Origin: Bacillus weihaiensis
Lineage (GTDB): Bacteria > Bacillota > Bacilli > Bacillales > Bacillaceae
Assembly (NCBI RefSeq): GCF_001889165.1
Contig: NZ_CP016020.1
Span: 3,979,001 to 4,043,000 of the forward strand
DNA length: 64,000 nt
Reading direction: 5' to 3'
The translations under genes and the position numbers were made by a program. The first letter of the stretch is position 1, and the number at the start of each line of letters is the position of its first letter. The notes under the pieces were generated by a model, which worked only from the letters and a program-made list of their open reading frames with translations, was not told the DNA's origin and ran no database searches. Shown one piece after another: positions 35,201-50,081 of the stretch.

Positions 35201-35638
35201 TTAATGCAATCTTAGCTTATATCTCTTTTCACCTTTCATATATCCTTGCTTCCACCAAGAATGAATATAATGCTCACATGCAAGATGTACTTCTTCTAAG
35301 GATGAATCACTTCCACGATATTTTCCCCAGTTTATATAATAATCATATAGTTCATCTGTTAGTTGCTTCTCCTCATGATAACAACGGGAGTTCGCAGCCT
35401 CCATTGTTTCACCTAAGTATCCGAATCGACTATACTTTGCACCTAGCATAAAGGCTTCGATTGCGAAATCTACACATCCGTCCTCAATGACATTTTTCTT
35501 TACCGAACTAGAGAAACCACTAAAGCATTCATCAATTTTGGCTTTAATTTCTGCTAATGTTAACTCTCGCAACATTTTCTTCTCATACTTTAATTCCTTT
35601 TGATGTCTCTTTTGCTTCAACGAAATGATTTCACTCAT
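35201..35638 (-). CDS. ybaK: DUF2521 protein YbaK
   Basis: 145 aa (B. subtilis YbaK has 147). A basic N-terminal helix (LKQKRHQKELKYEKK) is followed by a helical DUF2521 domain with AIEAFMLGAKYSRFGYLGE and HSWWKQGYMKGEKRY. Its place beside cwlD is conserved in Bacillus. There is no signal or membrane segment. Function is not known. Confidence 0.9.
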   Translation of the reverse strand: MSEIISLKQKRHQKELKYEKKMLRELTLAEIKAKIDECFSGFSSSVKKNVIEDGCVDFAIEAFMLGAKYSRFGYLGETMEAANSRCYHEEKQLTDELYDYYINWGKYRGSDSSLEEVHLACEHYIHSWWKQGYMKGEKRYKLRLH

Positions 35639-37691: not shown

Positions 37692-37704
37692 TTTCAAACG
37701 TATT

Positions 37705-37768
37705 ATTAACGTTTTGAGAACTGAGGTGCACGACGAGCGCCTTTAAGACCGTATTTCTTACGTTCTTT
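37705..37768. other. attL: 64-bp copy of rpsI 3' end
   Basis: Identical over 64 bp to 49688-49751 (from ATTAACGTTTTGAGAACTGA through TTACGTTCTTT). It is a non-coding relic of the original rpsI tail. Confidence 0.95.
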
Positions 37769-37885
37769 TATTTATCCATATAATTTGGAGAAATATGAAA
37801 TAAGACAAACCTTGGTCCATCACTACTTTGCTGCATTTCTAATACCTAAAATTAAAATGAATATTATACCGTTATATATGATTAG

Positions 37886-37903
37886 TGGTCAAAATGTGGT
37901 CAG
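37886..37903. repeat. Candidate integrase arm-type sites, left end
   Basis: Two GTGGTCA repeats (37886-37892, 37897-37903), 11 bp apart, about 120 bp inside attL. The same pair with the same spacing occurs near attR. Confidence 0.6.
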
Positions 37904-38715: not shown

Positions 38716-38976
38716 TCATTTATTAATATTATTTTTTTCATCAATAAATTCTTTATATAACTTAATCGCACGTTTTATTTGAGGCTTAACATATGTACTA
38801 AACTTATTAAACTCCTCATTGTTGTCCAAACTTTCAACAATGGTTTCGTAAGATTCTTTAAGATCAGAATCAATTATTTTATCCACCCTACGGACTCTTG
38901 AAACCACATCTCTAGCTGACCTTTCTTTTAATCCCCTATTACTTTCTAGCCATTGTTTAAATAAGTCAAGTTCCAT
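38716..38976 (-). CDS. Small protein downstream of the restriction gene, core-binding-like fold
   Basis: 86 aa from the ATG at 38976 (AAGGAGG 6 nt upstream); an ATG 3 nt earlier is also possible. Pattern LFKQWLESNRGLKERSARDV then VSRVRRVDKIID resembles the helical N-terminal DNA-binding domain of tyrosine recombinases, but no catalytic domain follows. It is the last gene of the leftward restriction-modification unit, 39 bp after the endonuclease. It may bind DNA as a regulator or specificity helper; this is inferred. Confidence 0.6.
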   Translation of the reverse strand: MELDLFKQWLESNRGLKERSARDVVSRVRRVDKIIDSDLKESYETIVESLDNNEEFNKFSTYVKPQIKRAIKLYKEFIDEKNNINK

Positions 38977-39014
38977 CATGAACCTCCTTTCCTGTTTCAT
39001 AAACAAGTACTGAA

Positions 39015-40466
39015 CTAGTTTTCTTGCACCGAGAACATATTAATAGTAAGATCCGATACTAAATTACTAACATCATTACCTAAGTTATTGGATATTATTT
39101 CATTAAAATCTGAATAACCTACCTCTCTAACATCGTTATTTATACAATTATACAAGAATTCCGAGAAAGTCCTAGCAAGTATAATTACTGTTGGTGTATT
39201 TCTTATGTCATTCCGGACAGCAGGAACATATCTTGATGTAACTACAATTGTATATTCTCCACCTATTTTTTCCCTATGAAGTGCTAACCTACCTGCATTT
39301 AAACTAGATAATTTGTTCTTAGTAGATTTAGCATCAACCGCAAACTTCATATTCCCATCTATATAAAGGCATTCAATATCGGTATTTCCTGCTCCACCTA
39401 TTTTTTCTGCCTGAACATTATGGAACATATTGAAACCGTCTACTAAAACATCTTCAAAAAGGTATGCTTCAGCACCATCATTGTTATTAGAGTATTGTTC
39501 GATTAGTTTCGGTAATTCGAGCAATTTAAGTTCTAGCTCATTATCTAATTCTCCAATTTCTCTTAATAAGGTTTTTGGATAAAAACTATGTATCTCCTTT
39601 ATGATATCTTTTTTTAACCTTTCTGGGTCATTTAATTTTAGAGGTTGCTCATCAAAAGGGAATTCCTCTAACAATTTCAAACAATAGTCATATATATGGT
39701 CAGAAATACTAACTGAATTTCTTGTTACCTTTCGAAATGTGTTTGTATTTCCTTGCTGAATTCTGCATATTTGATCTCCGAGTTCTACATTAAAAAGACC
39801 AATTTGTTCAAATAATCGTCTATAATAGTAGTCCCATTCATAAACAGCATTAACCAATACATGCCTCTTATTATTAAATAATATCTCAATCTCCGCATTT
39901 GATAATGCTCTAAGGTTAATAATATCATTTACTAATTCTTCATATTTTTCATCATTAATACTCTGAGTAAAAGCAACTAGGTAAGCGTACTCAAATGCAT
40001 ATAATTTATATTCAAGGCGCTCGTCAGTTAACAACTTAAAAATCAGCCTAAATGGAAACACCTCGAAGACTCTATCAGTCCCCCCATAAGTGTGTGGGAA
40101 CTGTAAAGCCCAGAGCATTGTTAAAAATATTTTTCTGATTTTTTCTTTGTTTCCTATATTGTTTAGAAATAAATTTCCTAATGGACTAAATAAAAACCTT
40201 TTTTGCCCATCAACTTTATCTTTATATCCAAACATAAAGAATTCCAACGTATTAATCCTGTGATTAATAGAATCAAGAGGCATTCCGGGATTTCTTCCAG
40301 TATAAAAATTCATTTCCCTTAGCCTCTGTAAAAGGTTTAATTTTTTATCTTCGGAAATAAGAGTTCGGTTAAAACTCTTTAATTCAATAGCAACAGTACT
40401 AATAATATTAAAATCACTAGTATGCCGGTACAGTATCCATTTCTTTTCTTCTATCCTGTATGTCAT
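39015..40466 (-). CDS. Probable type II restriction endonuclease (PD-(D/E)xK-like)
   Basis: 483 aa from the ATG at 40466, which overlaps the upstream methyltransferase by 50 nt; the frame is open to 40505. The N-terminal 340 residues are helical without a known motif. The C-terminal part has GNTDIE (about 360-365) and VDAK (about 377-380), fitting an Asp ... Asp/Glu-x-Lys nuclease centre, then a helix and [11 protein letters not shown]. That layout, with cleavage at the C-terminus, recalls type IIS enzymes such as the AlwI and FokI groups. Together with two methyltransferases it completes a restriction-modification operon. Target site unknown. Confidence 0.72.
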
Positions 40467-41553
40467 TATTATTCTTGTCCCCCTCAAGCTCAGGACCAAT
40501 ATCACTCAATATTTTCATTAACATTAAAGGAGGTATAGATTCGCCTATAACAGTCCTTATGAAGTTGTCGGAAACCCAAGACGGGAACTTTATATCTTGA
40601 GGTATAGAAGAAACAATAAAAGTTTCTAATAATGTTAGAACTCTTGCATCTGAGTATGTCCCATCTGAATTTAATCTACCTGGATGTACATTATTGTGTG
40701 AACTCATACTACCGCAGTAAGTTGTTCTAGCATGAGCAGGTTGGTCCCAGACCATTCTTTTAAAAGTATTATGAAAGCCTACAATTCTATCCCCATTTTC
40801 CTTTTTAGGATAATAAACTTCATTCTTTAGAGCACTCTGACCAGTTGGAGTATGCTTTAATGCTAAAACAGCTCTATCATTTTCTACTTTCGCATAATGC
40901 CAAGGAATACCAGAATCTTCTCCACTCTCTAGAGAAGGAAGATGATCAATAGCCTCTCTAAGAGTTATTTCTTGCTCTTGATCTGGCCAGCCCCATTTTA
41001 ATCCCTTTTTATACATCTTAATAATTGCTCTTGGGCGTGTTTGAGCTATTCCAAAGTCTTTTGCGTTCAATATAGCCGCTTCGATAACGTAGTCCTCAGA
41101 ATATTTATTATTTAGAATTTGTTCAAGATGAAGATATTCTCCATTATAAGGAAAATACATTTTTAAAAATTTCGGTACATTTTCTATTAATATATATTCA
41201 AAATTTCCACTATCTATTATATCAAAAATATCAAAAATCAGGTAATTTCTCTCATCATCTTCAAAATGACTTTGTTTTTTGTTTTTCCCAAGTGAACTTA
41301 GCCCCTGACATGGAGGTGTTGCTAATAACAGTTTTACATCATCAGATACATATGATTTAATTTTTTCCTTTACCTCTTCTTGAGTAATATCACCATTAAT
41401 CATAACTGTGTTTGGATTAAAATGTTTATAGCATTCCGCACGTTTAGGTAACAACTCATTTGCAGCAATTATGTTTATACCAATCTTATTAAGTAATAGT
41501 TCTCCAATTCCCGCACTGGAGAATAATGATATTGCATTTAAATTTAAATTCAT
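40417..41553 (-). CDS. DNA (cytosine-5-)-methyltransferase, second copy
   Basis: 378 aa. C5-methyltransferase motifs: [13 protein letters not shown] with catalytic Cys in [31 protein letters not shown], and X GESIPPLM. The target-recognition region between VIII and IX (about 190-290) differs from the first enzyme; [12 protein letters not shown] stands where the other has PTITIRNDA. Its ATG overlaps the first gene's stop (ATGA). The pair is about 45% similar by eye and was probably formed by duplication. It should protect one strand of an asymmetric site. Confidence 0.92.
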
Positions 41554-42620
41554 TGTTCTATCTCCCCTACTAGTTTTTTTAGCATTAGCGGTGGAATGGA
41601 TTCACCAATACACTGTCTAATTAACAATTCTGGTGTATCGTCAGGTATCCCCCAGTCAATGGGGAGTGAATTTAATAACATTAATTCAAGCGGAGTTAAT
41701 ACCCTAGCATCGGAATATGTTCCATCTTCTAATCTTCTCCCGGGGTGAACATTTCTTTGAGAGCTTATAGCATCGTTTCGAATAGTAATTGTAGGAGCCG
41801 GTTCATCCCATAAGATTCTTCGATATGTTGTGTTATATCCTTTTACTCTACTACCATCTAATTTTTTAGGAAAATAGATTTCATTCTCAAATGCAGACAT
41901 ACCTGTTGGAGTATGCTTCATCCATAAAACATGTCTTTCATCGTGTTTTCTGGCAAAATGCCATTTGATATCTGAGAATTCTCCAGATTCAAGACTAGGC
42001 AAATGACTTATAGATTCTCTAACTGTAATTTTTTTCTCAGATGCTGGCCACGGCCATTTTCTGTCTTTTTTATAAAGCTTAATAATAGCTCTTTTTCTTG
42101 TTTGGGGTACTCCCAAATCAGCAGCATCTATAATGCATGTCTCAATATTATATAAATCATTAAACTCATTAATAAGAATATCTTCAACTGTTTTTAGACT
42201 ACCATTATAGGATAACAATAACTTTAAAAGTGAAGGAACATTTTCTATAAGAACATAAGTCGGATCTTTTATGTTAATTACTTCAATCACCTTATAAATT
42301 AAATAATTTCTTTCATCTTTCGACATACTATCAACATTTCTATTTTTACCCGCTACACTCAAACCTTGACAAGGTGGAGAAGCTAATAGAAAATCAATTT
42401 TTTCTGGGGATGAATTTATGAAATTCAAAAAAACATCTTTATCAAGAATATTTCCCTGAATCATGTTAGTTTCAGAATGAACATTCCTATATAAATTAGC
42501 TCTTCTCTCTACTAACTCATTAGCGGTTACTATATCTATCCCTATATCTTTAAAAAAGGTCTCTCCTATTCCAGCACTTGAAAACATTGATAAACCTATA
42601 ATATTTCCCATATTTCTCAC
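41550..42620 (-). CDS. DNA (cytosine-5-)-methyltransferase, first copy
   Basis: 356 aa from a GTG at 42620 (AAGGA 6 nt upstream); an ATG at 42611 is possible. Motif [11 protein letters not shown], motif [13 protein letters not shown] with catalytic Cys, [22 protein letters not shown] region [18 protein letters not shown]. First gene of the unit M-M-R-small gene. The stop overlaps the next start by 4 nt. Two C5 enzymes in tandem are the usual sign of a non-palindromic recognition sequence. Confidence 0.93.
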
Positions 42621-42924: not shown

Positions 42925-44232
42925 ATGGAAAAAATTATAGTCCGTGGAGGAGAGGAATTAAAAGGTACTGTTCATGTTGAAGGAGCTAAAAATGCAGCCT
43001 TACCCATACTTATAGCAACTTTATTGGCAAGTGAAGGAAAAAATACAATTTATAATGTACCCTCCCTCACTGATGTAAAAACTACTATTGAGATATTAAA
43101 ATACTTAGGTTCAGAGGTTATTTACTCTAATAAAGAAGTCAATATAATTACTGGAAAACACTTAAAAGTAACTGCCCCTTTCGAATTTGTAAGAAAATTA
43201 CGTGCATCCGTACTATTTATGGGGCCACTTTTAGCAATAAATGGGAAAGCAAAAATTGCCCTTCCTGGAGGTTGTGCTATAGGCACACGCCCCATAGATC
43301 AGCATATTAAGGGATTTAAAGCTATGGGTGTAGATATTAATATCGGTAACGGTTACATTGATGCTGTAGTTAATAAACCACTTCAGGGTGCAGAAATTTA
43401 TCTAGATTCTCCTAGTGTAGGTGCTACTGAAAATATTATGATGGCTGCAACACTTGCTGAAGGAACAACATTAATCAAAAATTGTGCCAAGGAGCCCGAA
43501 ATATCCGATTTAGCAATTTTTTTAAATAAAATGGGAGCAAGGATAAGTGGCGCTGGTACAGATACAATAAAAATAGAAGGTGTAAAAAAACTAACTGGTA
43601 GTTCCCACAGTGTCATGCCAGATAGAATTGAAGCAGGAACTTTTATGGTAGCTACTGCAATAACAAAAGGTAACGTCTTGGTTAAGGGTGCTAAACTAGA
43701 ACATTTAGCCTCACTTGTAGCAAAACTAAAAGACATGGGAATAAAAATCCTTGAGGAAGAAAATGGACTAAGGGTTATTGGTTCTAAGGAATTAAAGGCT
43801 GTAGATATAAAAACGTTGCCGTACCCAGGTTTTCCAACAGACATGCAGCCCCAAATGATGGCATTGTTACTACAGGCTGAAGGAACAAGTATTATTACAG
43901 AAACAGTTTTTGAAAATCGTTTTATGCATGTAAATGAATTTCAGCGTATGAATACAAATATAAAAGTTGATGGGCGTTCAGCCATTATTAATGGTCCATC
44001 AAATCCTAGTGGAGCCGTAGTTTCAGCAACAGATTTACGTGCAGCAGCAGCTTTGATATTACTAGGTTTAGCATCTAAAGATGAAACAACTGTAACAAAT
44101 TTAATTCATTTAGATCGTGGTTACGTAAATTTCGCTCATAAATTATCTAGTCTTGGAGCAAATATTACCCGCTTTTCACAAATTAATGATACCGAAAAAA
44201 GTGAAAAAAAGATATCTTTCAATAACCATTAA
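42925..44232 (+). CDS. murA: UDP-N-acetylglucosamine 1-carboxyvinyltransferase (MurA), island-borne
   Basis: 435 aa. It catalyses the first committed step of peptidoglycan synthesis, adding enolpyruvate from PEP to UDP-GlcNAc. Key residues are all present: Lys 22 and Asn 23 (EGAKNAALP), the fosfomycin-binding Cys 117 in GGCAIGTRP, Asp 306 in FPTDMQ, and DLR at 370-372. A C-terminal tail of about 17 residues beyond the usual end is Lys/Asn rich. Start ATG has GGAGG upstream. Bacilli keep murAA and murAB elsewhere, so this is probably an extra copy carried by the island. Retained Cys means it is not an intrinsically fosfomycin-proof form. Confidence 0.93.
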
Positions 44233-44270: not shown

Positions 44271-44319
44271 AAAAAAAGCTGTAGTTATAAAATCATAAAT
44301 TGATCTTATAACTACAGCC
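44271..44319. terminator. Bidirectional terminator between murA and SRP RNA
   Basis: Long stem CTGTAGTTATAA / TTATAACTACAG (arms about 44279-44290 and 44306-44317) with seven T on the minus strand and TTATTTT on the plus strand. It ends both convergent units. Confidence 0.88.
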
Positions 44320-44335
44320 TTATTTTATTATAGAG

Positions 44336-44605
44336 AATACCGTGCACCTTCAGTCGATTAGCCACCATAGGCGTTACTCAAACAGTTAGCTCGGCTCAGG
44401 CAACCCTACGGCACATGAGAGCTTCCACTTAATGCTGCTTCCTTCCGGACCTGACATGGTTCATGGATTCCCATTGCGTAGGACCCAAACGTCAACACCA
44501 CTTACTTGAGACAGCCCTACAGTGTTCTACCCTCTAGAAGGAATTCGGCCTCGCTAGAGCGGATTGCGAGTATAGGGCACCGCTACCTCCCCGCTTAGCA
44601 CGGTA
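44336..44605 (-). ncRNA. scr: Signal recognition particle RNA (large Bacillus type), island-borne
   Basis: About 270 nt. The minus strand follows the B. subtilis scr RNA through its whole length: GTGCTAAGCGGGGAGGTAGC near the 5' end, the Ffh-binding helix 8 with ATGTCAGGTCCGGAAGGAAG and GCAGC, GGGTTGCCTGAGCCGAGCTA, and GAAGGTGCACGGTA at the 3' end. The ends pair (TACCGTGC / GCACGGTA). The Alu domain is present, so it is the full Gram-positive form. The normal chromosomal place is near dnaX/recR; here it sits between island genes with its own promoter and terminator. Confidence 0.95.
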
Positions 44606-44611
44606 AAGCTA

Positions 44612-44640
44612 ATTATAACTTCAATGGTGGAAGATTGCAA
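44612..44640 (-). promoter_or_regulatory. Promoter of the island SRP RNA
   Basis: Minus strand TTGCAA (44635-44640), 17-nt spacer, TATAAT (44612-44617). The predicted start falls at about 44605, exactly the expected RNA 5' end. Confidence 0.82.
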
Positions 44641-44792: not shown

Positions 44793-45218
44793 CTATAGTT
44801 TCCATTCAACTATGGTTGAATCAAGACTGTCCAGTAAAGAATCTCCTATACTCTTTTTTTCCTTTAAGCTGAGAGTCGTTTCTTCTTGTTTCAATAATGA
44901 TATTGTTTTCATTCGCAACTCAATTATTTTTTCGGTTGGGATTTCAGATAAGTCCCGCTTTTTCAATTCTGCATTTAACTGATTCATTTGCTCTCCGAAA
45001 AATTCAATTCGCTTTTTTTTGGAAACATAATACTTTTCATGTAGCAATTCCAGTTCCAATGATTTACGGTTACTTACCTCAAATTCTAATTCCTTGCCCC
45101 ATTTTATTAATGTAGGTTTACTTACACCTAATTCCTTTGATATGTGCTCATAAGGTACTTCTTTAGCTCTCATTTCAATAAATTGTTCTTTTTGATCCAT
45201 TTTCGTCACTTTAGCCAC
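44793..45218 (-). CDS. HTH/coiled-coil protein, TerS-like candidate (island)
   Basis: 141 aa. An N-terminal helix-turn-helix (about 18-42, YEHISKELGVSKPTLIKW) is followed by a long charged coiled coil (50-125). This layout is that of phage terminase small subunits (DNA-binding HTH plus oligomerising helices) and of HTH_23-like proteins. Its place downstream of the replication gene, on the same strand, is where phage satellites keep terS. A plain regulator is the alternative. ATG behind GGGAGAG. Confidence 0.6.
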   Translation of the reverse strand: MAKVTKMDQKEQFIEMRAKEVPYEHISKELGVSKPTLIKWGKELEFEVSNRKSLELELLHEKYYVSKKKRIEFFGEQMNQLNAELKKRDLSEIPTEKIIELRMKTISLLKQEETTLSLKEKKSIGDSLLDSLDSTIVEWKL

Positions 45219-45528: not shown

Positions 45529-47100
45529 TTATCCTTGAAGTGCATTAGAATATAACAAAAATTGTTTTACAAGTTGATTTTTATATCTAAAATGTTGTAC
45601 CTCTCCTAAGCCCTGGGATTCAATTAGCTCAATTGTTTCTTCTATGAGTTTGATATTTGTATATCGACCAAATACTTTACCTTGATTCAATGCATTTATT
45701 CTAATACTAAAACCTTTTTCAAGCTTTTCTCCTTTCCTACGTACATAATCCATTAATTTAAGTGCGTTCTTATCTTCAAAATTGGATTGAGTATACTGAA
45801 AAACTTTTTTTGCTTGAGTTTTAAAATATTCCATAATGTAGTTTGTATAATAAACTATTTCCCTATCGATAAGATCAATTTTCACTTGATTAGGATTACT
45901 AGCCCATTTAAGCATATGAATTATGAGCATAATCCTTGGGTGTAAGCCTTTTAACTTCTTCCATACGCCTTTTAACATTTCAGGAAAATCTGAAACATTC
46001 GTTTCGTCTTCTGTTACGTCATACCATATAGAAAATGCTTTTTTTGCTTCTGAGCTTAAATAAACTTTTTTAGGCCTTTCTTCATTAAATGAATTATACA
46101 ATTTATAGATAACATCACAGTACCTCTCTATCACCTCTTCACTCACGTCTTCATCTGTCCATTTAGAAGGAACAGGGTCAGGATAACAAAATAAAAACCG
46201 ATCAATAAAACCATCATCCCCTGATCCTTCACGCTCAGTTTTAATTAATTCCTCAATCATGTCTGGTTGAATGCCACCTATAATACTTACAAAGGGCTTA
46301 GGGATCCGGATTGGCTCTTTACCTTTTCGGTTAATAAAAATTTCTTCATTAGACCAAATTGAAAGCCAATATTGCCGGTCTGCACCTGCCCTATATTGAT
46401 TCATCCCTTTAACAAAACCAAGAAGTTCATCATGTAGCTTTATAATACCTCTTTTGTTATATAAAAGAATTTCATGTAAGGCCTCCATTGTAGAATCCAT
46501 AGTAATTATTTGCTTTACATTTGGAATTATTGGTTCTATAGGTTTTTCCTCTAAATTATCTTTCTGACTGGCCTTTCTAAGATGCCTTTTCCATTTTTCC
46601 AATTCAATTTCATAATTGTCTTTTTCCAACTCATATTGTATTTTTTTTGATTCATATTCTTTAAAAATATATTCTTGTAAGTTAAAAAGCGGCTGCAATG
46701 CTTTGTTAATCGCTGGTGTTTTAGCACTTCCAGGATCAGCAACTATACCACAATAGAGCGTAACACCTGATCTCCAACTTTTCTTAAGTTCTAATGTTGC
46801 TCCATTTCCAATAGCAACACTTGTGCAAACTAATACACCCATAGCAATAAAATCAAGTGGACAAGAAAGGGCTCTGCCAGTATCATGTATAAATCTTTCT
46901 ATAGGTTCCGGAAACAAGGTATAAGGAAATGATGGTGTTTCTTGTAAAGTTAAAGTCTGAGCTTCCTTTAAAAGTTTTTCTTCAAATAAGTCATAAGAGC
47001 TCGGAATGTTTTCTGATTTATGTGATATAATATTCTTAGCTAGATTTTCTTTTTGGGGTTGTTCTGTCGGAGGAACAACCTCTTTATTTATTTCATTCAT
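45529..47100 (-). CDS. DUF3987 primase/helicase-associated protein (island replication)
   Basis: 523 aa. DUF3987 proteins are P-loop proteins of phages, plasmids and islands linked to replication. A Walker A-like VADPGSAKTPA (about 121-131), a following helical insert (150-190) and a probable Walker B IIKLHDELLG (about 215) are visible, then SIIGGIQPDMI. The N-terminal 50 residues are polar. Third gene of the leftward series after the two HTH genes. A role in island replication is inferred. ATG lies within the end of the preceding gene. Confidence 0.78.
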   Translation of the reverse strand: MNEINKEVVPPTEQPQKENLAKNIISHKSENIPSSYDLFEEKLLKEAQTLTLQETPSFPYTLFPEPIERFIHDTGRALSCPLDFIAMGVLVCTSVAIGNGATLELKKSWRSGVTLYCGIVADPGSAKTPAINKALQPLFNLQEYIFKEYESKKIQYELEKDNYEIELEKWKRHLRKASQKDNLEEKPIEPIIPNVKQIITMDSTMEALHEILLYNKRGIIKLHDELLGFVKGMNQYRAGADRQYWLSIWSNEEIFINRKGKEPIRIPKPFVSIIGGIQPDMIEELIKTEREGSGDDGFIDRFLFCYPDPVPSKWTDEDVSEEVIERYCDVIYKLYNSFNEERPKKVYLSSEAKKAFSIWYDVTEDETNVSDFPEMLKGVWKKLKGLHPRIMLIIHMLKWASNPNQVKIDLIDREIVYYTNYIMEYFKTQAKKVFQYTQSNFEDKNALKLMDYVRRKGEKLEKGFSIRINALNQGKVFGRYTNIKLIEETIELIESQGLGEVQHFRYKNQLVKQFLLYSNALQG

Positions 47101-47410
47101 CTAAATCATCACCTGAATCTTCAAATGATTTCCTACCATTTATTGAATTACTCCCCATCCACTTTTGAACATCCCTCCGTTTTAACCTTATAACTTGTCC
47201 CCTTTGAAAAAATGGTATTTCTTTATTGGTAATTAACGTGCGAACAGTTGGAATACTTACTTTTAAGTACTCTGCAACTTCTTTGATGGTTAATACCTCT
47301 TCCTTTCCCCATTCCTCTTGTACTTCCATTAAAATTTCTTGTAACGCTACTTTTAACTCACAACGATTTATTAATATAGTTCCTTCAGGTAATTCCAACT
47401 TAAAGTTCAT
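47093..47410 (-). CDS. Excisionase-type HTH (MerR-like) protein
   Basis: 105 aa. The central domain LTIKEVAEYLKVSIPTVRTL then RGQVIRLKRRDVQKWM is the winged HTH_17 (Xis/MerR) fold. In islands such proteins act as excisionase or replication co-factor. The end overlaps the DUF3987 gene by 8 nt, showing translational coupling. ATG behind AAGGGTGG. Confidence 0.8.
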   Translation of the reverse strand: MNFKLELPEGTILINRCELKVALQEILMEVQEEWGKEEVLTIKEVAEYLKVSIPTVRTLITNKEIPFFQRGQVIRLKRRDVQKWMGSNSINGRKSFEDSGDDLDE

Positions 47411-47425
47411 TCTCTTCCACCCTTT

Positions 47426-47674
47426 CTATCCTTTTTCAATTTGAGTACAAAAGTATTCAACTTCCTTATCTAGCGTAATTGCAATTTGGTGTATTGTAGA
47501 ATGACGTATTCTTCTTTTATTTCCATTCTCAATTTCTCCAATGGTTTTCCTTGTTACCCCTGACATATTGGCTAGATCGCTTATTGTCCAACCTTTTTCA
47601 GTTCTAGCTATCTTTATTTTTGTACCGTCAATTTTATAATTTTCTTTCTTTTTTATTTGTAGTATACATTCCAT
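47426..47674 (-). CDS. XRE-family regulator (leftward)
   Basis: 82 aa from the ATG at 47674 (GGAGG upstream); the frame extends to 47692. The Cro/C1-type HTH covers about 15-70 (IKIARTEKGWTISDLANMSG, VTRKTIGEIENG). It is the first gene of the leftward island series and is divergent from the larger repressor gene, in the position of Str/Cro in satellites. It lies 15 bp ahead of the Xis-like gene. Confidence 0.8.
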   Translation of the reverse strand: MECILQIKKKENYKIDGTKIKIARTEKGWTISDLANMSGVTRKTIGEIENGNKRRIRHSTIHQIAITLDKEVEYFCTQIEKG

Positions 47675-47693
47675 ATCACCACACCTCCACATT

Positions 47694-47806: not shown

Positions 47807-48364
47807 ATGATTGGACAACGTGTTAGAGAATTAAGAAAAAGAAAGAACATGACCTTAAGAGAGTTAGCAGCTGAGTTAGAAATTCCTTTTACAACTTTAG
47901 GAAACTATGAACGTGGGGATAGAAGTCCTGACTTTGGTTTCGTCCTTGATGTAGCCAAATACTTTAATGTTTCAATAGACTTCCTTACAAAAGGAGATGA
48001 CCATATTAATTATGATGAGTATCTAGTTTCTCGATACACTAAAGACATCAATACAATGCTTAATAAAGCTAACCCAGAAGTAAGAGAAAAAATATTGGAT
48101 ATACATGATCAAATATTTTTTATTACTTGTGAACATGCCGTTAGTGGTGCAAGTAAACCCAATAATAAGGAATTAGAATTGGTACAACAGATAGTAAATT
48201 TTCTCCTTAGAATGAAAAATAATTTTGGAATGGGGATAAAAGAAGATGGATTCACCCCTTCAACAAAATTCGAATTAGCAAAATTGTACCTAAAAGAAAA
48301 ACAAGACATTGATAAATCATTTAATGAACTTTTTGAACTTCATATAGAACGAAGTATTAAATAA
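47807..48364 (+). CDS. XRE-family repressor, likely island master regulator
   Basis: 185 aa; ATG behind AAAGGAGG. The N-terminal HTH (1-62) has VRELRKRKNMTLRELAAELE and TTLGNYERGDRSPDF, the phage CI/ImmR type. The C-terminal 120 residues are helical (dimerisation or anti-repressor binding). There is no LexA-type Ser/Lys protease motif and no HExxH partner gene, so release by a helper-phage protein, as for satellite Stl repressors, is more likely than by RecA. Cotranscribed with int. Confidence 0.8.
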   Translation: MIGQRVRELRKRKNMTLRELAAELEIPFTTLGNYERGDRSPDFGFVLDVAKYFNVSIDFLTKGDDHINYDEYLVSRYTKDINTMLNKANPEVREKILDIHDQIFFITCEHAVSGASKPNNKELELVQQIVNFLLRMKNNFGMGIKEDGFTPSTKFELAKLYLKEKQDIDKSFNELFELHIERSIK

Positions 48365-48421
48365 TACGATGATAGAACATCATATCTAAATTCAGGAACA
48401 TTTGAAAAAGAGGTGAAAAGG

Positions 48422-49573
48422 TTGGCTTCATTTCAGAAGTACAATACAAAAAAAGGACAATTATGGTTGTTCAAAATAGACCTAGGGAAAGATCCAGAAT
48501 CAGGCGGAAGACTAACAACCACACGCAGGGGATTTAAAACAAAAAAAGAAGCACAGCAAGCAGCATTAAAGCTTACACAAGAAATATCAAATGGTCTTTC
48601 ACTAAACAGTAATGACCTTACCTATAAAGAAGTATTTGATCAGTGGTTTTCTAATCATTCTAAAACTATTAAGGCTAGTACTAAGAAAAGTATTGAATCA
48701 AAATTTAATAAGCACATTTTACCACGTTTCGGTCAACTGAAGATTCGCGAAATTACCAAGCCCTATTGTCAAAAAATGATTAATGAAATTGCTGAGTTAA
48801 TTACCTCTGTAAATGATATAAAAATTCAGGCGAATCAAGTTTTTAAATATGCTCTAAAAATGGATATTATTTCAATGAACCCGTTAGAACATGTAAGTAT
48901 ACCTAGACAGCAAAAGGAATTAATCAATAACGAAAATGAAGTGGATAAGCGAAATTACTGGAAAAAGGATGAGATAAAACAATTCCTAAAAATAGCCAAA
49001 CAAGAGTTATCATTTCGTGATCACACACTTTTTCACCTTTTAATTTATACAGGTGCACGAAAAGGTGAAATATTAGCTCTTACGTGGGATGATATAGATT
49101 TTGAGGCTGGCTCCATCCGCTTTACAAAAACACTTTTTCATAACAAGGGTAATTTCATCTTTCAAACGTCTAAAACAAAGGAATCAAGGCGTTTAATTAG
49201 TTTAGACACTAAGACCATATCCTTATTAAAAAAATGGCGCATACGGCAAATAGAGACGGATTTAGCTAATGTGAATAAAGATGATGAAAATAAGATGATT
49301 TTTACCCGGGATGACGGTACTCCGCTTCGCTTAGCTTATCCAAATGAAAAGCTCGAAATTGTAATTAAAAAACACAACCTTTACAGAATTACTATTCATG
49401 GTTTACGTCACACGCATGCTTCCTTGTTATTTGAAGCAGGAGCAAGTATTAAAGAAGTTCAGGAGCGGCTAGGTCACTCTGATATACAAATGACAATGAA
49501 CATCTACACACACGTAACAGATACACTTAAAGAGCAAACCGCACAAAAATTTCAAAGGTACATTGAATTATAA
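48422..49573 (+). CDS. int: Tyrosine-type site-specific integrase
   Basis: 383 aa from the TTG at 48422 (GAGGTG 6 nt upstream); the frame also offers GTG at 48413. Order: AP2-like arm-binding N-terminus (1-60), core-binding SAM-like domain (70-165), catalytic domain with Arg in TGARKGEIL (about 213), Lys near SKTKESRR, HGLRHTH (His 326, Arg 329), LGHSD (His 352) and nucleophile Tyr about 362 in MNIYTHV. It lies 115 bp from attR and catalyses integration into rpsI. Confidence 0.95.
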   Translation: MASFQKYNTKKGQLWLFKIDLGKDPESGGRLTTTRRGFKTKKEAQQAALKLTQEISNGLSLNSNDLTYKEVFDQWFSNHSKTIKASTKKSIESKFNKHILPRFGQLKIREITKPYCQKMINEIAELITSVNDIKIQANQVFKYALKMDIISMNPLEHVSIPRQQKELINNENEVDKRNYWKKDEIKQFLKIAKQELSFRDHTLFHLLIYTGARKGEILALTWDDIDFEAGSIRFTKTLFHNKGNFIFQTSKTKESRRLISLDTKTISLLKKWRIRQIETDLANVNKDDENKMIFTRDDGTPLRLAYPNEKLEIVIKKHNLYRITIHGLRHTHASLLFEAGASIKEVQERLGHSDIQMTMNIYTHVTDTLKEQTAQKFQRYIEL

Positions 49574-49586
49574 AATGTGGATAGAT

Positions 49587-49621
49587 GTGGTCATAAAATT
49601 TCCGTGGTCAAAATGTGGTCA
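49587..49621. repeat. Candidate integrase arm-type sites, right end
   Basis: Three GTGGTCA repeats (49587-49593, 49604-49610, 49615-49621). The last two repeat the left-end pair exactly, including the 11-bp spacing (GTGGTCAAAATGTGGTCA). Confidence 0.62.
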
Positions 49622-49672: not shown

Positions 49673-49687
49673 TTTGAAACGTTGATA

Positions 49688-49751
49688 ATTAACGTTTTGA
49701 GAACTGAGGTGCACGACGAGCGCCTTTAAGACCGTATTTCTTACGTTCTTT
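49688..49751. other. attR: 64-bp repeat within the functional rpsI 3' end
   Basis: It carries the last 20 codons and stop of rpsI, brought in or restored by the island so the host gene stays intact. Identical to 37705-37768. Confidence 0.95.
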
Positions 49752-50081
49752 CATACGAGCGTCACGAGTTAACATGCCAGCACGCTTAAGTGAAGCACGG
49801 TATTCTGGATCTGCTTCTAATAGAGCACGAGAAATACCATGACGGATAGCTCCTGCTTGACCTGCATATCCACCACCTGAAACGTTAACAAGTACATCAT
49901 AGCTACCTGTAGTTTCAGTGATATTTAATGGTTGTTTAATATCTTCGATTAGAGCCGCTGATGGGATGTAATCTTTGATTTCGCGATTATTTACAACAAT
50001 ACGACCTTCACCTGGAACTAGACGCACACGCGCTACTGAGCTCTTACGACGGCCTGTACCGTAATATTGAACCTGTGCCAA
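49689..50081 (-). CDS. rpsI: 30S ribosomal protein S9
   Basis: 130 aa, full length. [15 protein letters not shown] at the start and the basic C-terminal tail ([17 protein letters not shown]), whose last Lys-Arg reaches the P site of the ribosome. Its 3' end is the island's integration target and is duplicated at 37705. The coding sequence is unbroken. Cotranscribed with rplM, 20 bp upstream. Confidence 0.98.

Follow-up and report, generated by a model that had tools for sequence, protein, structure and literature searches.

The rpsI island and its genes

The window (the whole 64,000-nucleotide stretch of Bacillus weihaiensis DNA analyzed here) contains an integrated element of about 12 kb at the 3' end of rpsI. 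The element is bounded by 70-bp direct repeats that are 97% identical and lie 11,983 bp apart. One of them (49685..49754) is located at the 3' end of an intact rpsI gene (49689-50081, minus strand), and the other (37702..37771) is the displaced rpsI 3' end. Arm-type sites with the motif GTGGTCA were found just inside both repeats on the plus strand: a pair at the far end (37885..37902, motifs at 37885 and 37896) and, at the integrase end (49587..49621), sites that include a pair at 49604 and 49615. Pairs of this motif are also present within both element ends of L079, L209, and L211. A tyrosine integrase (48413..49573, plus strand; PF00589, 1.5e-32) adjoins the rpsI-proximal sites. Relatives of this enzyme (68-74%) lie beside rpsI in five other genomes, and rpsI-side relatives occur in L079 and L209-L215. 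The repeats, the integrase, and the paired arm sites flank the interval that holds an SRP RNA gene, which bears out the earlier placement of that gene inside an integrated element.

The core genes proceed inward from the integrase. A CI-like repressor (47807..48364, plus strand; HTH_3, 2.5e-14) is followed by an HTH regulator (47426..47692, minus strand; phrog_8, 1.2e-11), an excisionase-like HTH_17 protein (47093..47410, minus strand; PF12728, 2.4e-14; phrog_66, 6.4e-10), and a DUF3987 helicase/primase-like protein (45529..47100, minus strand; PF13148, 4.6e-69; phrog_2373, DNA helicase, 9.9e-50). The last core gene before the cargo encodes a conserved HTH-like protein of 141 residues (44793..45218, minus strand). 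Relatives of this protein (58%) occupy the same place in L078 and L080; its match to a terminase small subunit (phrog_7344) is weak, at 0.003 only, and this is the sole hint of the small terminase or packaging-interference genes that would mark a phage-inducible chromosomal island.

The cargo comprises the SRP RNA gene, a convergent murA, two C5 cytosine methyltransferases, and a type II restriction enzyme. The methyltransferases (41550..42620, PF00145 5.1e-53, PADLOC MTase_II 460.9 bits; and 40417..41553, PF00145 9.2e-43) and the restriction enzyme (39015..40505; PADLOC REase_II PDLC03533, 516.2 bits, with no Pfam or NCBIfam match) are all on the minus strand. So is the gene for a 96-aa protein (38716..39006) that had no family match in the Pfam, PADLOC, PHROG, and NCBIfam searches.

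The murA gene (42925..44232, plus strand; TIGR01072, 563.8 bits) converges on the SRP RNA gene; with it, the genome has three MurA-type genes. Its product is 64% identical to the host MurA at C1:176400 and 49% identical to that at C1:122278; a fourth PF00275 gene of the host looks like AroA (24%). Four candidates were scored per genome in 397 genomes, and no relative above 69% was found among the matches listed. The protein retains the GGC motif, the Cys of which we take to be the catalytic residue. It also matches phrog_25097, a family of unknown function, with 610 bits.

Two congeners (G003 and G017) have an empty site with a single copy of the rpsI end. In these genomes, a gene for a 145-aa protein, found at 35201-35638 in the present window, starts ca. 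0.23 kb (G003) or 0.63 kb (G017) after rpsI. The site is a hotspot: of the 20 genus genomes that gave a match, 10 (counting the host) have the rpsI end again within about 12 kb. A group I intron was noticed in the rpsI-side region of a different genome (L214, 3067-3327), and the host genome encodes another member of the island integrase's family (36% identity) at G000:C1:3918515-3919645.

Islands at the rpsI 3' end are known in Macrococcus (McRI), and related integrases occur in Bacillus and S. aureus (PMC5341023). Such islands share with the present one an integrase of the tyrosine type at the 3' end of rpsI, direct repeats, an int-stl-xis-like order of the HTH genes, and restriction-modification cargo. 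Compared with McRImecD, the present island has the DUF3987 protein in place of virE, lacks mec, and carries SRP RNA and MurA. Because virE is absent and a DUF3987 gene is found instead, the claim extends to the type of integration and not to membership of the McRI group.

Identity and signals of the island SRP RNA

The SRP RNA gene (44340..44603, minus strand) is of the large bacterial type with Alu and S domains. The Rfam covariance model RF01854 aligned over its full length (positions 1-256 of 256) with 232.2 bits (gathering threshold 60; E = 6.2e-40), so the description of a complete, Alu-containing SRP RNA in the first-pass annotation was upheld. The extent given there, 44336..44640, was too generous: an SRP RNA does lie in this interval, but the RNA proper is 44340-44603, and the remainder up to 44640 is promoter. 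The predicted fold of the RNA plus terminator is more stable than those of its shuffles (z-score -3.84).

A sigma-A-like promoter (44612..44640, minus strand; TTGCAA-17-TATAAT, 10 of 12 consensus matches) ends 8 nt before the RNA. Three promoter-like sites were found in 601 bp around the gene versus 1.4 (sd 1.1) in shuffled sequences; thus, it is position alone that makes this site notable. An intrinsic terminator (44275..44321, minus strand) with a stem of 20 pairs and a T-run starts 18 nt downstream of the RNA and forms a separate hairpin in the predicted fold. The terminator search returned two candidates at the locus versus 0.5 (sd 0.7) in shuffles. The gene therefore has a promoter-like site and a terminator of its own, as had been proposed. 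Divergence in the Ffh-binding S-domain core (helix 8, positions 126-190) was looked for, and the island copy proved identical there to the host's canonical gene.

As a protein-sorting RNA, SRP RNA belongs to the core housekeeping RNAs. The island copy resembles the canonical Bacillus scRNA (RF01854) in being full length and free-standing, with both domains and the conserved core. It differs in that it resides on a mobile element rather than between tadA and dnaX, has another promoter and terminator, and is one of three copies in its genome.

SRP RNA genes of the host and descent of the island copy

The three RF01854 genes of the host genome are a normal tadA-scr-dnaX copy (neighbors named by eye), the island copy, and a divergent third copy (C1:2089998). 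The island gene is thus additional to the dnaX-linked one, and the possibility that it might be the only scr copy does not apply. The comparison and phylogeny that had been suggested were carried out. The island and canonical RNAs are identical at 249 of 264 positions (94%, 15 differences); the corresponding figure for the divergent copy is 198 of 278 aligned columns. A PF00448 search found three host genes, putatively one Ffh, one FtsY, and one FlhF, as judged by length and position.

A tree was built from 98 SRP RNAs. In it, the island copy is nested among the canonical chromosomal scr genes of the genus. It falls within a well-supported set of 38 sequences (100/95) and is sister, with weak support (87/70), to the canonical gene of G003 (L012). 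Only 9 differences separate it from that gene versus 15 from the canonical gene of its own host, which argues that it is not a fresh duplicate of the latter. Its most likely source is a chromosomal scr of the same genus but another species.

The 80-bp flanks of the island RNA were compared 16 times with canonical flanks. In 14 cases they showed no clear resemblance, with over 50 of the 300 shuffles reaching the score. The two high-scoring exceptions were the downstream flank of L012 (4 of 300 shuffles) and the upstream flank of L035 (2 of 300). Canonical flanks compared with one another were alike in six of six controls (0 of 300 shuffles each). Homology thus ends with the RNA body, and it follows that either the body came without its flanks or these were exchanged afterward. 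RNA-level capture and gene conversion limited to the body are both candidate routes.

Constraint on the island copy

In relative-rate tests with six outgroups, 7-9 changes were assigned to the island copy and 0-1 to its sister (chi-squared 4.5-9.0). Base pairing decreased from 83 to 81 of 98 pairs. When random substitution was simulated 20,000 times, 74% of the runs lost two pairs or fewer, and the observed loss is accordingly not below chance. A double change that keeps the pair is present at 125/196, and at least one such event occurred in 9% of the simulations; compensatory changes were considered as a signal of selection, and the simulations gave no support for this. The region 126-190 has no changes at all, as in 8% of the simulations. 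If L012 represents the ancestral state, seven of the nine differences are C-to-T or G-to-A, as in drift. Judged from these substitution patterns, the island SRP RNA is probably under weak or relaxed constraint, and any benefit that it confers would therefore be small, conditional, or not yet realized.

Surveys for SRP RNA as cargo

Seventeen rpsI regions, two of them the empty sites, gave no SRP match when searched by blastn with the island copy. Rfam scans of 12 of them also revealed no SRP RNA in the stretches covered, which may hold partial elements. The first-pass annotation had proposed such a survey of rpsI-integrated islands. Rfam likewise detected no SRP RNA in the stretches scanned around four GTDB relatives of the DUF3987 protein (L078-L081) or in the 4.3-kb stretch around a weak relative from the genus (L072). 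Because none of these rpsI regions or helicase relatives has one, the SRP RNA cargo is a single case in the material examined, whereas the type of integration is already known.

Scans of viral sequences with the DUF3987 protein and with MurA confirmed no relative. In the titles and abstracts searched, no account was found of SRP RNA in islands or of arrays of noncoding RNAs like those described below; this is weak evidence of absence. In secretion work in B. subtilis, an additional scr was built under an inducible promoter (PMC4482152).

A divergent second lineage of large SRP RNAs

Four candidates were scored per genome under strict filters in 397 genomes of the order. The premise that SRP RNA is usually single copy needs qualifying: one or more additional full-length large SRP RNAs are present in 24 of these genomes, among them that of the host, and this count is a lower bound because of the number of candidates scored and the strictness of the filters. 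In the 98-RNA tree, 41 of the 43 extra sequences form one clade (99/95), the exceptions being L124 and L129. RNAs of this divergent type occur in 15 of 21 genus genomes, in other Bacillales, and on Priestia plasmids. Under the strict filters, none was found in 59 genomes of other genera of the family, two of which yielded no SRP RNA of any kind. The island copy was considered as a member of this lineage and rejected: it falls outside the 41-member clade, among the canonical genes. Both are extra full-length large SRP RNAs beside a normal one. The divergent lineage has some plasmid-borne copies and mostly occurs in arrays with 6S RNA or tRNA.

The neighborhoods of 28 divergent-lineage places (L003, L027-L034, L038-L040, L112-L115, L118, L119, L122, L123, L125, L128, L130-L133, L154, and L155) were scanned with Rfam; nine further clade members (L134-L142) were left out. 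Noncoding RNA neighbors (6S, tRNA, 5S, rRNA, tmRNA, or RNase P RNA) were found within about 1.5 kb at 21 of the 28 places, and 6S RNA was near 15. The remaining seven, including the third copy of the host, had no such neighbors. The protein neighbors of seven array loci, inspected by eye, look like ordinary chromosomal genes. These arrays look like a second set of housekeeping RNAs. The branching order within the clade departs from the families, with G107 (f29) mixing with seven sequences of f17 and f1, and this hints at transfer within the lineage.

Twenty plasmid and four phage matches to SRP RNA were obtained, and six of the plasmid records (L035-L040) were examined as candidates for mobile carriage. 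Three of them (L035, L036, and L037) turned out to be pieces of chromosome with tadA-scr-dnaX, although PLSDB holds them as "complete" plasmid sequences. The other three (L038-L040) are Priestia records that carry the divergent lineage; L038 is 9.8 kb in size and consists mostly of an rRNA operon. The Priestia plasmids are the only clear carriage of this lineage on a mobile replicon.

Interpretation

On balance, and with moderate confidence, we favor the reading that the island SRP RNA was captured recently, is probably transcribed, and is redundant, with its benefit unproven. An island at the rpsI 3' end would have taken the RNA from the chromosomal scr of a congener, most likely of another species, into a cargo slot that also holds a third MurA gene and the type II restriction-modification genes. 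The RNA body alone is clearly homologous, and the promoter-like site and terminator around it would be new. The RNA would be transcribed from its own promoter, fold like the host RNA, and join the same particle with the cell's single putative Ffh, thereby adding a redundant SRP RNA to the cell. Given the faster rate and the chance-level loss of pairs, we regard the RNA as redundant and probably transcribed but do not claim a selected benefit.

The strongest competing explanation, to which we assign an appreciable but clearly smaller probability, is that the gene arrived by accident as the cargo slot was rearranged, is of no benefit, and owes its intactness solely to recent capture. It would readily account for the rate excess over the sister gene, the chance-like changes in pairing, the drift of substitutions toward AT, and the absence of SRP RNA from the 12 rpsI-site loci scanned with Rfam and from the L078-L081 and L072 stretches. 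Yet an accident is unlikely to have placed a bare RNA body so that a promoter-like site precedes it and a strong terminator follows, and the core at 126-190 is untouched, although 8% of the simulations leave it so too.

It is unlikely, in our estimation, that the RNA is selected cargo, i.e. that the SRP RNA and MurA are stand-ins with which the island buffers host copies that are attacked or overloaded by, for example, a phage, drug, or toxin. Two duplicated housekeeping functions do adjoin in the island, in the company of restriction-modification genes, and the related island L078 has a thymidylate-kinase-like ORF (by eye) in the same slot. But the island RNA bears no signal of selection, and the MurA, at its level of identity to the host enzyme and to the best of the matches listed, does not share the RNA's recent origin. 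We know of no agent that attacks SRP RNA. A broader notion, which we regard as a long shot, is that islands may carry transcribed stand-ins for essential host RNAs or enzymes: in the present case, a bare SRP RNA body would have been fitted with a new promoter and terminator, giving the island rather than the chromosome control of a share of the SRP and the cell a reserve should some agent hit the host copy.

That the copy reflects a misassembly, or that the host's own gene was duplicated recently, is very improbable, as nothing beyond the 94% identity speaks for it, the RNA is closer to another species' gene than to the host's, and the copy lies within an element with matched ends in a 2-contig assembly with 0.22% contamination. 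Least probable of all is the earlier suggestion of an attachment-site relic left by an older element that had integrated in scr; phage contigs L073 and L074 do adjoin a small SRP RNA gene and tadA, but the present element's own attachment site is rpsI, its SRP RNA is full length and internal rather than partial at an element end, and no scr flank, tadA, or dnaX is left beside it, so this explanation was rejected.

Under the favored reading of recent capture and redundancy, a complete, horizontally carried SRP RNA with its own signals would indicate that a core RNA can become cargo. The island copy would offer a natural test of SRP dosage, as 15 bases tell it from the host's canonical copy in RNA-seq. 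Together with the divergent lineage, it points to the presence of two or more SRP RNAs in a fair number of Bacillales; a model with one SRP RNA per cell leaves multiple copies unconsidered.

Small SRP RNAs

Small, Alu-less SRP RNAs (RF00169) were identified in addition to the existing large one in the genomes G083 (twice), G295, and G140 (L158, 7494-7574; L159, 7494-7574; L157, 7484-7575; L160, 7499-7583). Short pieces of the model in these three genomes had been considered as attachment-site relics, a candidacy that was dropped when Rfam identified them as small SRP RNAs. The one in L158 lies about 0.6 kb from an integrase (by eye) that adjoins a tRNA, and the one in L160 directly follows an RNase P RNA.

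In the prophage-like contigs L073 (8386-8469) and L074 (9299-9382), about 75 bp separate the end of a tyrosine integrase gene (by eye) from a small SRP RNA gene, which is followed by tadA. An SRP RNA thus neighbors a tyrosine integrase in these contigs, as in the present island; there, the host's small SRP RNA gene seems to be the target of integration, whereas here the RNA is cargo. Small SRP RNAs with nearby tRNA genes are also found on three putative viral contigs of IMG/VR: L241 (8566-8658; contig of 497 kb), L246 (520-612; 372 kb), and L247 (1923-2018; 290 kb). This suggests that giant phages carry SRP RNA.
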